Shown: positions 5,086 to 11,993 of the stretch, one piece after another
Numbering within the stretch: position 1 is the stretch's first letter
How the letters are laid out: every line of letters begins with the position of its first letter
Assembly (NCBI RefSeq): GCF_000423225.1
Contig: NZ_AUHO01000010.1
Span: forward strand, 62,001-126,000
DNA: 64,000 nt
From: Kaistia adipata DSM 17808
GTDB lineage: Bacteria; Pseudomonadota; Alphaproteobacteria; Rhizobiales; Kaistiaceae
Direction: 5' to 3'
Translations under genes and position numbers: made by a program
Notes under the pieces: generated by a model
Told to the model about the DNA's origin: nothing
Database searches by the model: none
The model's input: the letters and a program-made list of their open reading frames with translations, nothing else

Positions 5086-5114
5086 TTGACCGCGCCGCCC
5101 AATGGGGTTAGAAC
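5086..5114 (+). promoter_or_regulatory. sdhCDAB promoter
   Basis: A -35 TTGACC at 5086-5091, a 17-base spacer, and a -10 TAGAAC at 5109-5114. The last part of the spacer, AATGGGGT, and the TAGA of the -10 are shared with the mdh promoter at 11920-11948, which also has a 17-base spacer. This conservation between two functionally linked operons supports the assignment. Confidence 0.65.
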
Positions 5115-5137
5115 CGGTCCAAATTCCTACCCTAAAT

Positions 5138-5155
5138 GCTTACGTTTACGTAAGC
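5138..5155 (+). promoter_or_regulatory. palindromic operator upstream of sdhC
   Basis: GCTTACGT and ACGTAAGC form perfect inverted arms around a central TT. The site lies 23 bases after the predicted -10 and just before the ribosome binding site, so a bound protein could block transcription or early elongation. A near copy, TTACGTTTAGGTAA, sits at the same relative place upstream of mdh. ACGT-rich palindromes of this kind resemble published sites of MerR-type regulators such as LiuR, but the regulator here is unknown. Confidence 0.6.
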
Positions 5156-5172
5156 GGTTGAGGATGAACGCA

Positions 5173-5571
5173 ATGTCGAATGCCGAGGCGAAGTCGAGCC
5201 GACCGCTTTCACCGCACCTCCAGGTGTATCGCTGGCCGATCACCATGACGGTGTCGATCCTGCAGCGTGTCACGGGCGGGGCGCTCTATTTCGGCACGCT
5301 GCTGATCGCCTGGTGGGCGATCGCGGCGGCCGCCGGCCCGGGCCCGTTCTCCTATGTCTCCTGGGTGTTCGGCTCCTGGATCGGCCTTCTGGTCCTGTTC
5401 GGCTACACCTGGGCGCTGATGCAGCACCTGCTCGGCGGCATCCGCCATTTCGTCTGGGATTTCGGCGCGGGCTTCTCGAAGCCGGCTCGCGACAATCTCG
5501 CCTGGGCCAACATCATCGGCTCCTGCGCGCTGACGATCCTGATCTGGGTCGTGGCGCTCGCCATTCGCTGA
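5173..5571 (+). CDS. sdhC: succinate dehydrogenase cytochrome b556 subunit
   Basis: A 132-residue inner-membrane anchor of respiratory complex [14 protein letters not shown] near the N terminus and SILQRVTGG with its quinone-site serine and arginine are the SdhC signature, and [13 protein letters not shown] [13 protein letters not shown] carries the haem-ligand histidine. Three membrane segments are visible (about residues 32-56, 70-95 and 108-130). The ATG at 5173 is chosen because GAGGA lies 8 bases upstream; an ATG at 5164 would overlap that site. It leads sdhC-sdhD-sdhA-DUF3052-sdhB, with sdhD starting 11 bases after its stop. Confidence 0.95.
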
Positions 5572-5582
5572 GGGGCAATCAC

Positions 5583-5954
5583 ATGCGTACACCGCTCGGC
5601 CGCGTTCGCGGGCTCGGCTCGGCCAAGGAAGGCACGGGTCATTTCTGGCATCAGCGCCTCACCGGCGCCGCACTGGCCGTCCTCGCCGTGCTGTTCGTCA
5701 TCCTGGTCATCGTGCTCGCCGGCAAGCCCTATCCGGAAGTCGTCGCGACCCTCGCCAACCCGTTCGTGGCGCTGCTGATGGTCCTGATGATCGGCACCGG
5801 CGTCTGGCACATGAAGCTCGGCATGCAGATCATCATCGAGGACTATCTGCACGGCGGTCTGAAGATCGTCGCGCTGGTCGCCAACATGTTCTTCGCGGTC
5901 GCCGTCGGTGTGGCGACCATCCTCGCCTTCCTCAAGATCAGCTTCGGAGGCTGA
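5583..5954 (+). CDS. sdhD: succinate dehydrogenase hydrophobic membrane anchor subunit
   Basis: A 123-residue membrane anchor of complex II with three transmembrane helices. The N-terminal block [20 protein letters not shown] followed by WHQRLTG is the conserved alphaproteobacterial SdhD start; the helix carrying [15 protein letters not shown] includes the conserved histidine and the DY pair that line the quinone and haem site. It starts 11 bases after sdhC and its stop is four bases before the sdhA ATG, consistent with one mRNA. Confidence 0.96.
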
Positions 5955-5958
5955 AGCC

Positions 5959-10653: not shown

Positions 10654-10692
10654 CAGGGCGGCCGCGCGGGCGCGGTTGCGGAGGTAAGACGG

Positions 10693-11859
10693 TTGAGTCA
10701 GGGCCTGCCGGAGGTTGCGCGCGTCGCGGATGCCTATCGCGAGCGTGTCGCGAACGGCGAGATCGAGGACGATCCGGAGCAGCGCGCGCTGGTCGCCAGG
10801 CTCGACGCGCTGAACGCTCGGCTCGCCGAGCGGCGGCTCGCTCGCAAGTCGAGCGCGCTCGGCTGGCTGTTCGGCAAGCGCGAGGCGGCGACGCCAGAAG
10901 TCCGGGGCCTCTACATCCATGGCGATGTCGGCCGGGGCAAGACCATGCTGATGGACCTGTTCTTCGAGGGCGCCGCGCCGCAGCGCAAGCGCCGGGCCCA
11001 TTTCAACGACTTCATGGCCGACGTGCACGCCCGCATCTTCAAGATGCGCGAGGCGATCAAGGCGGGGTCGGTGTCGGGCGAGGACCCCATTCCCCCCGTC
11101 GCCGACCAGATCGCCGAGGAGACGCAGCTCCTCTGCTTCGACGAGTTCACCGTCACGAACATCGCCGATGCGATGATCCTCGGCCGGCTGTTCACGCGGC
11201 TGTTCGCCCGCGGTGTCGTCTTGGTCGCGACCTCCAACGTCGCGCCGGACGATCTCTATGCAGGTGGGCTTAATCGCGCGCTGTTCATGCCCTTCATCGA
11301 GCTTCTGAAGGCACGGGTCGAGGTGGTGCGGCTCGCCGCGCGGACCGACTACCGGCATGAGAAGACGGCGGGCGCGCCGATCTATCTGACGCCGCTCGGC
11401 CCCGATTCGGACGCCGCGATGGATGCAGCATGGCTCCAGCTTACGTCAACGTTACATGGCGACGCGACGACCCTGGAGGTGCTTGGCCGCGACGTCGTCG
11501 TGCCGCAGGCGGTGGACGGGGTCGCCCGCTTCAGTTTCGACGACCTCTGCGCCCGGCCGCTCGGCGCCAGCGACTACCTCGCCATCGCGCACGCCTTCCA
11601 TACGGTCCTGATCGATCACATCCCGGTGATGGGCGAGGCGAAGCGCAACGAAGCCAAGCGTTTCATCACACTGATCGACGCTCTCTATGACGGCGCGGTG
11701 AAGATCGTCGTGTCGGCGGATGCCGAGCCGGACCGACTCTATTCGGCCGAGGGCGGCCTCGAGATGTTCGAATTCGCGCGCACGGCGTCGCGGCTCACCG
11801 AAATGCGGTCGGAAGAATATCGCGCCAAGCCGCATCACGGGTTCATCGTCGAGACATGA
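10693..11859 (+). CDS. zapE: cell division protein ZapE (AFG1-type ATPase)
   Basis: A 388-residue P-loop ATPase. Walker A is GDVGRGKTMLMD, Walker B is LLCFDEF, and the family blocks HFNDFMADVHARI and VATSNVAPDDLYAGGLNR are present. In proteobacteria ZapE acts with the FtsZ ring at late division; the mitochondrial homologue Afg1 handles respiratory-chain subunits. The start is TTG at 10693, 8 bases after GAGG; no ATG lies nearby. It sits between the Omp19-like gene and mdh; zapE upstream of mdh-sucCDAB is a common alphaproteobacterial arrangement. Confidence 0.92.
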   Translation: MSQGLPEVARVADAYRERVANGEIEDDPEQRALVARLDALNARLAERRLARKSSALGWLFGKREAATPEVRGLYIHGDVGRGKTMLMDLFFEGAAPQRKRRAHFNDFMADVHARIFKMREAIKAGSVSGEDPIPPVADQIAEETQLLCFDEFTVTNIADAMILGRLFTRLFARGVVLVATSNVAPDDLYAGGLNRALFMPFIELLKARVEVVRLAARTDYRHEKTAGAPIYLTPLGPDSDAAMDAAWLQLTSTLHGDATTLEVLGRDVVVPQAVDGVARFSFDDLCARPLGASDYLAIAHAFHTVLIDHIPVMGEAKRNEAKRFITLIDALYDGAVKIVVSADAEPDRLYSAEGGLEMFEFARTASRLTEMRSEEYRAKPHHGFIVET

Positions 11860-11860
11860 C

Positions 11861-11872
11861 GCTTACGTAAGC
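11861..11872 (+). promoter_or_regulatory. GCTTACGTAAGC palindrome upstream of the mdh promoter
   Basis: A perfect 12-bp palindrome two bases after the zapE stop. It is made of the same half sites (GCTTACGT and ACGTAAGC, here overlapping by four bases) as the operator upstream of sdhC. It lies 48 bases before the predicted mdh -35 element and could be an auxiliary site for the same regulator. Confidence 0.45.
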
Positions 11873-11919
11873 TGCTGCGCGAATTGGCGGATTGCCGCCA
11901 CGTAAGGTGTTGCGACGAC

Positions 11920-11948
11920 TTGCACCTGCCGAGCAATGGGGTTAGACC
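11920..11948 (+). promoter_or_regulatory. mdh-sucCDAB promoter
   Basis: A -35 TTGCAC at 11920-11925, a 17-base spacer ending in AATGGGGT, and a -10 TAGACC at 11943-11948. The spacer end and -10 match those of the sdh promoter at 5086-5114. Confidence 0.6.
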
Positions 11949-11979
11949 ACCGGCGTTCCGACAGAGTCAAACTGTCGCA

Positions 11980-11993
11980 TTACGTTTAGGTAA
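11980..11993 (+). promoter_or_regulatory. TTACGTTTAGGTAA operator upstream of mdh
   Basis: An imperfect copy of the palindrome upstream of sdhC (one mismatch in 14 bases). It lies 31 bases after the -10 and 23 bases before the mdh ATG. The matching position and sequence in two TCA-cycle operons suggest a shared regulator. Confidence 0.6.

Follow-up and report, generated by a model that had tools for sequence, protein, structure and literature searches.

What sets the level of the tricarboxylic acid (TCA) cycle in alphaproteobacteria? To our knowledge this is poorly known beyond a few models. The question arises in Kaistia adipata DSM 17808, in a 64,000-nucleotide stretch of contig NZ_AUHO01000010.1 (the window), where the operons sdhCDAB and mdh-sucCDAB are each preceded by a similar promoter and by a palindrome. 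A sequence-only reading of the window had proposed that one regulator co-controls both operons, that promoter and palindrome belong to the same regulatory set, and that the palindromes resemble the sites of LiuR-like proteins, with no regulator gene nearby. LiuR is a MerR-family regulator of isoleucine, leucine and valine degradation in proteobacteria, and its motif is palindromic, with ACGT arms. Is there a single regulator, and if so, which protein is it? Genome comparison strongly supports a single co-controlling regulator for the two operons, whose binding and regulation we infer from sequence, and the palindromes are quite probably the operators of a 152-residue LiuR-like MerR protein encoded elsewhere in the genome (G000:C3:303627-304082).

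Palindromes and promoters of the two operons

Is the pair of palindromes real? It is, and it is not the work of chance. Both palindromes were confirmed at the positions first claimed for them. GCTTACGTTTACGTAAGC occupies 5138-5155, with its last base 17 bases short of the sdhC start, and its core, TTACGTTTACGTAA, begins 33 bp ahead of sdhC; TTACGTTTAGGTAA, a one-mismatch copy of TTACGTTTACGTAA, occupies 11980-11993, 37 bp ahead of mdh. With up to two mismatches allowed, the window holds five rows matching TTACGTTTACGTAA, at four places, against 0.01 rows expected from shuffles. Is the palindrome perhaps scattered at random through the genome, as the sequence-only reading had wondered? In the 4.84-Mb genome the sole place without a mismatch is at sdhC and the sole place with one mismatch is at mdh, and the sdh-mdh interval, 6.9 kb long, holds four of the six places with two or fewer.

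Looser matches tell us little. At up to three mismatches the genome search returned 33 rows and the reversed pattern, used as a control, returned 52, so that the three-mismatch matches carry no weight. Three of the 33 rows have no locus, and the 27 places that do are sdhC, mdh and 25 weak places that we read by eye. Nineteen of the 25 fall within mechanically called open reading frames (ORFs) of at least 80 residues. None was recognised ahead of a TCA or acyl-CoA gene, nor was an isoleucine, leucine and valine degradation operon recognised at any of them, by eye and with no family search made on them. The extra copy that the sequence-only reading had seen at 11861 is present, but it does not stand alone: it belongs to a 14-bp site at 11857-11870, conserved in the genus, which we call O2, the site nearer to mdh being O1. 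The zapE-like gene contains a weak match at 11441, which was rejected as a further site, as it was not seen in genomes G099 and G130. Two TGACGT-type places, C5:19428 and C5:19927, were also discarded as LiuR sites; the first lies among unrecognised ORFs and the second inside one.

Do the promoters belong to the same regulatory set? In the window the pattern TTG-N20-TAGANC is found only at these two promoters (0.16 expected; two reached in 1 of 100 shuffles), and the 12-mer AATGGGGTTAGA is exact at both. When AATGGGGTTAGA is searched at up to two mismatches, a pair of matches is unremarkable (0.89 expected; reached in 24 of 100 shuffles), and the identical 12-mer is not retained across all Kaistia species. 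The sdhC boxes themselves, -35 TTGACC and -10 TAGAAC, are present in 13 of 13 Kaistia rows compared. Two genomes of the family that have no palindromes, G015 and G063, still have recognisable sdhC and mdh promoters. Since a similar promoter persists there without the operators, we reject the shared promoter as a regulatory element, and this part of the sequence-only reading is not supported.

The operators and the regulator gene in relatives

We compared 28 genomes of the family. The regulator gene is present in 15 (14 of genus g1, which we take as Kaistia from regulator identity and tree grouping, and G172) and absent from 13. The sequence-only reading had looked to conservation in relatives, and conservation before sdhC and mdh was found in all 15 regulator-bearing genomes. 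Read directly, each of these has the sdhC operator at -31 to -34 and two sites at mdh, 122-125 bp apart: O1 at -36 to -38, with no more than two mismatches in the arms, and O2 at -158 to -163, with no more than one. The arms are conserved and the centre is variable. Eleven of the 15 have TTACGTTTAGGTAA unchanged as O1, with ACCTC directly after it, the others being G162, G163, G164 and G172. O2 starts with TGA in every one; in the window this TGA ends the upstream gene, and elsewhere it is taken to do so from the similar context. The pattern TTACGTNNANGTAA occurs in all 15, and its places in the 14 g1 genomes all fall at sdhC or mdh, bar one in G164. Among the 13 genomes without the regulator, TTACGTNNANGTAA occurs once each in two, both times inside unrelated ORFs. 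In G015 and G063, where sdhC and mdh were read directly, none of the three operators was found (best arm scores 5-6); the other 11 were judged by the exact pattern only, which is blind to TGACGT-type sites.

Which protein might recognise these sites? The window genome has five MerR-domain genes, and the candidate lies on a contig other than that of sdh and mdh, so the sequence-only reading was right to see no regulator gene nearby; its guess of a LiuR-like MerR protein also fits, as the matching gene co-occurs with the sites. Pfam shows only MerR domains in the protein (PF13411, PF09278 and PF00376, above cut-off), among them the N-terminal helix-turn-helix domain, and the helix region is near-identical across 18 orthologues. 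The protein is 95% identical to its counterparts in Kaistia terrae and K. defluvii, the tree grouping it with Kaistia, and 59-79% identical to the closer regulators that adjoin a gene for an acyl-CoA dehydrogenase of about 597 residues, and to their kin. By its sequence, the Kaistia regulator is an orthologue of the fatty-acid-type LiuR-like regulator of alphaproteobacteria. Kazakov and colleagues reportedly assigned alphaproteobacterial LiuR orthologues to fatty-acid degradation in 2009.

The Kaistia protein falls outside a second MerR clade, in a tree with many weak inner forks, unsettled bootstrap values and flagged long branches. This second clade (97/96 support) adjoins an acyl-CoA dehydrogenase gene of about 390 residues, which we take to be of the isovaleryl type; judged by that neighbour, the clade looks more like LiuR proper, of isoleucine, leucine and valine degradation. 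In three of its loci, L172, L181 and L183 (G116, G049 and G136), the regulator gene is immediately preceded by TGACTTTTACGTAA, a motif akin to the palindrome but not the same.

The same palindrome is found upstream of the orthologue, or between it and the acyl-CoA dehydrogenase gene, in G044, G118, G148, G138, G049, G102 and G062. Among 80 named loci searched at up to one mismatch, 10 have a site within 350 bp upstream of the regulator gene, 12 have one in the gap behind it, ahead of the dehydrogenase gene if there is one, and 21 have one or the other. The reversed control gave no site in either position; three further matches to the palindrome lie elsewhere in the loci. An acyl-CoA dehydrogenase gene stands behind the regulator in 50 of the 80. 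In Kaistia the dehydrogenase gene is not behind the regulator, and a large ORF (L034:2091-5477) is divergent from it; this neighbour is homologous in 8 of 11 relatives tested, of which two are Kaistia and one match is weak.

How far does the association extend? Across 150 genomes of the order, searches located mdh in 144, sdhC in 147 and the regulator, at E 1e-20 or better, in 111. Where upstream regions were read, a site was scored at no more than one arm mismatch before sdhC or mdh, and the regulator was called present at 53% identity or more. Sites were found in 21 of 38 genomes with the regulator (8 of 14 families), in 2 of 5 with weak regulator hits (1 of 3 families) and in 0 of 12 without a hit (5 families); shuffled upstream regions had one in 6 of 2180. 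Seven of the genomes read (G010, G058, G095, G136, G012, G116 and G021) had been picked for earlier pattern matches, and without them the comparison stands at 15 of 32 versus 0 of 12 (p 0.003, ignoring relatedness). Counting that of the window, 9 of the 20 families read thus have the site before sdhC or mdh, and among the matches listed there are others near sdhC or mdh, for example in G022, G085 and G120. Two-site mdh promoters are also present in G010, G058 and G095, at about -190 and -25, and in other families sites lie as far out as -140 to -218.

Other families have further targets. Sites in G010 stand ahead of the citrate synthase and aconitase genes and also of genes for an acyl-CoA dehydrogenase and an SCP2 protein. 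Acyl-CoA ligase-like genes follow the sites in G084 and G083, and an acyl-CoA dehydrogenase gene follows the one in G069, with G023 and G043 looking alike by eye. At L040, L045, L049, L051, L052, L152, L155 and L158 the sites are near no recognised target gene. Unlike these wider target sets, the detectable sites of the window genome are only at the two TCA operons. Taken with the sites at succinate and malate dehydrogenase, the wider sites suggest that in many Hyphomicrobiales a single signal may link the TCA cycle with the oxidation of fat. We note that at L039 (G084) TTACGTATACGTAA adjoins an ORF cluster with a PduO-type cobalamin adenosyltransferase and an apparent 3-hydroxyacyl-CoA dehydrogenase; among the matches listed, this 14-mer is also found in G119 and G131. 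Upstream of sdhC in G044 and G058 there are similar ORFs (L142:1804-2898 and L147:1725-2831) that by eye are like MaoC-type hydratases.

Several observations weigh against a single LiuR-like regulator of both operons. Seventeen of the 38 regulator-bearing genomes lack a site at either sdhC or mdh (6 of 14 families), and therefore the gene does not imply an sdh/mdh regulon. Two genomes with only a 37% or a 48% regulator hit have mdh sites, though the 48% hit (L182) does sit before a dehydrogenase gene. The upstream region of one or both genes was read in 55 of the 150 genomes, mostly those with sdhC and mdh close together, and the co-occurrence comparison covers one of the five MerR genes of the genome. 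Within the family, co-occurrence is mostly that of one genus and one neighbour genus, so that p-values overstate independence. Beside the regulator gene itself, 59 of the 80 named loci have no site at up to one mismatch, and the three Kaistia loci among the 80 have neither a dehydrogenase gene behind the regulator nor a site. The regulator's own promoter was searched in four Kaistia loci and no site was found (best match 5 mismatches, as in shuffles), so the argument from self-sites is borrowed from other families. Nor did four loci of the window genome with dehydrogenase homologues have a site at up to three mismatches. Sites at the regulator's own gene and at acyl-CoA dehydrogenase genes, the traits of LiuR orthologues in other families, were thus not seen at the Kaistia loci examined.

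Operator layout, a proposed mechanism and its rivals

The features of the two operons are collected in the table. Pfam checks covered sdhC, sdhD, sdhA, sdhB, the zapE-like gene, mdh, sucC, sucA and sucB. At O2 a coding sequence runs into an operator: the first three bases of the site are the TGA that stops the zapE-like gene.

Table. Positions in the window of the promoters, operators and genes of the sdhCDAB and mdh-sucCDAB region.
Feature	Position	Strand	Details
sdhC promoter	5086..5114	+	-35 TTGACC 5086-5091, 17-bp spacer, -10 TAGAAC 5109-5114; from sequence, transcription start predicted
sdhC operator	5138..5155		GCTTACGT-TT-ACGTAAGC, core 5140-5153; 15/15 regulator-bearing family genomes
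sdhC, first gene of sdhCDAB operon	5173..5571	+	PF01127, translation
sdhD	5574..5954	+	PF01127; start codon assumed
sdhA	5908..7779	+	PF00890, PF02910; start codon not settled
sdhB	8263..9042	+	PF13085 and 4Fe-4S domains
zapE-like AFG1 ATPase gene	10693..11859	+	PF03969; start not settled; TGA stop 11857-11859 within O2
mdh operator O2	11857..11870		TGACGCTTACGTAA; 15/15 regulator-bearing family genomes
mdh promoter	11920..11948	+	-35 TTGCAC 11920-11925, 17-bp spacer, -10 TAGACC 11943-11948; predicted from sequence
mdh operator O1	11980..11993		TTACGTTTAGGTAA within block TTACGTTTAGGTAAACCTC; 14-mer and block unchanged in 11/15 regulator-bearing family genomes
mdh, first gene of mdh-sucCDAB	12017..12982	+	PF00056, PF02866
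sucC	13021..14220	+	PF08442, PF00549
sucA	15214..18189	+	PF00676, PF16870
sucB	18208..19494	+	PF00198

How might such operators act? In classic MerR activation the operator sits within a long spacer that separates -35 from -10. In the window the operators are downstream of the predicted -10, or upstream of -35 in the case of O2, and the spacer is 17 bp, a layout that fits a repressor instead of a classic MerR activator. We propose that the MerR protein, presumably as a dimer, binds TKACGTNNACGTMA. The sdhC operator would lie about 17-34 bases beyond the predicted transcription start; at mdh, O1 would lie about 25-38 bases beyond the start, and some 50 bases would separate O2 from the -35 box downstream of it. 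Bound protein would then hinder RNA polymerase at both promoters, with two operators flanking the promoter at mdh. Repression therefore fits the position of operators beyond the predicted start and on both sides of the mdh promoter. The signal is perhaps an acyl-CoA or a related metabolite, a guess from the neighbours in other families, and the catabolism of fatty or amino acids might lift the block on sdh and mdh-suc at the same time. That the DNA loops to join O1 and O2 is likewise a guess, prompted by their near-constant spacing.

MerR operators are dyads of about 19-20 bp. A 20-bp dyad, TKACGTTTACGTAAACGTMA, which contains the 14-bp palindrome, is found in several relatives, exactly in G116 and with one mismatch in G010, G058 and G095; the Kaistia mdh O1 block differs from it by 3 mismatches and the window sdhC site by 4. 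This dyad form may explain why O1 looks like a one-mismatch palindrome.

Might the palindromes serve some other regulator, a different MerR protein or one of the GntR or TetR families, that shares the same distribution? The genome does have four further MerR-domain genes, and the 17 gene-bearing genomes without sites at sdhC or mdh would suit such a protein. It is hard to see, however, why the site should then recur at the LiuR-like gene's own promoter in several families and be absent in the 12 genomes read without that gene, and we regard another regulator as unlikely. AkgR and CceR in particular were rejected: the AkgR motif, GTGATCAC in the available part of the source (PMC6365646), is unlike the window sites. 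Chance likeness, or a sequence retained without function, could also claim those 17 genomes, along with the fact that only two operons in the genome carry the palindrome. Yet the palindrome is unique in the genome at the zero- and one-mismatch level, its arms are conserved around a variable centre in 15 genomes, and it recurs before sdhC or mdh in nine of the 20 families, so that chance is scarcely credible.

Could the palindrome act instead as an RNA hairpin before the ribosome-binding site, governing how well both messages are translated or how stable they are? An 8-bp stem closed by a 4-base loop can form in the sdhC leader, but 34 and 33 of 200 shuffled leaders fold equally well (z -1.0 and -0.8), and the mdh site forms no such stem, a conserved G breaking the symmetry. 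The distant sites of other families and the overlap of O2 with the stop codon of the upstream gene also speak against a hairpin, which we consider very improbable.

These palindromes are, then, best read as operators of a MerR repressor of acyl-CoA catabolism that in Kaistia has detectable sites only at sdhCDAB and mdh-suc. What evolutionary steps might account for it? One path, which we offer tentatively and with more doubt than belief, is that the Kaistia protein began as a fatty-acid-type MerR regulator, lost its former targets and its self-control, and came to serve solely as a two-operon TCA switch, with O1 and O2, 122-125 bp apart, looping out the mdh promoter and the upstream stop codon built into the distal operator.

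Relation to known regulatory systems

The regulator family is known. What would be new is the restriction of detectable Kaistia sites to TCA operons, together with the apparent two-operator mdh promoter. Our literature search, of titles and abstract openings, found no report of such a regulon in Kaistia or of a two-operator mdh promoter; the RegPrecise tables, which may list TCA targets, were outside it. With just three predicted operators, at two operons, in the whole genome, the candidate regulator lends itself unusually well to testing, and the family provides a natural comparison, in relatives that have similar promoters but neither regulator nor operators.

How does the proposed system compare with those already described? 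The candidate is like LiuR in being a small MerR protein with ACGT-armed palindromic operators and, in relatives, acyl-CoA dehydrogenase neighbours. LiuR is described as a MerR-family repressor, and in the available part of the same source the Shewanella LiuR regulon reaches central metabolism, at the glyoxylate shunt and glutamate synthase (PMC3223726), a spread into central metabolism that would be shared here. The available part of Leyn et al. 2016, which treats LiuR in 103 genomes, names no TCA targets for LiuR (PMC5343134). Unlike LiuR, the candidate in the window genome has no detectable acyl-CoA gene site or self-site, and it is predicted to act on sdhCDAB and, through two operators, on mdh-suc. 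AkgR and CceR of Rhodobacter sphaeroides are, like it, alphaproteobacterial regulators of central carbon metabolism; but AkgR shares 32% identity with a gntR-like factor, and the motif cited above is found in its sites (PMC6365646). A further parallel may be with PsrA and PdhR of Shewanella, catabolic repressors whose regulons, in the portion of the source available, include sdh and other TCA operons (PMC5343134), although those proteins are of the TetR and GntR families and belong to other lineages.

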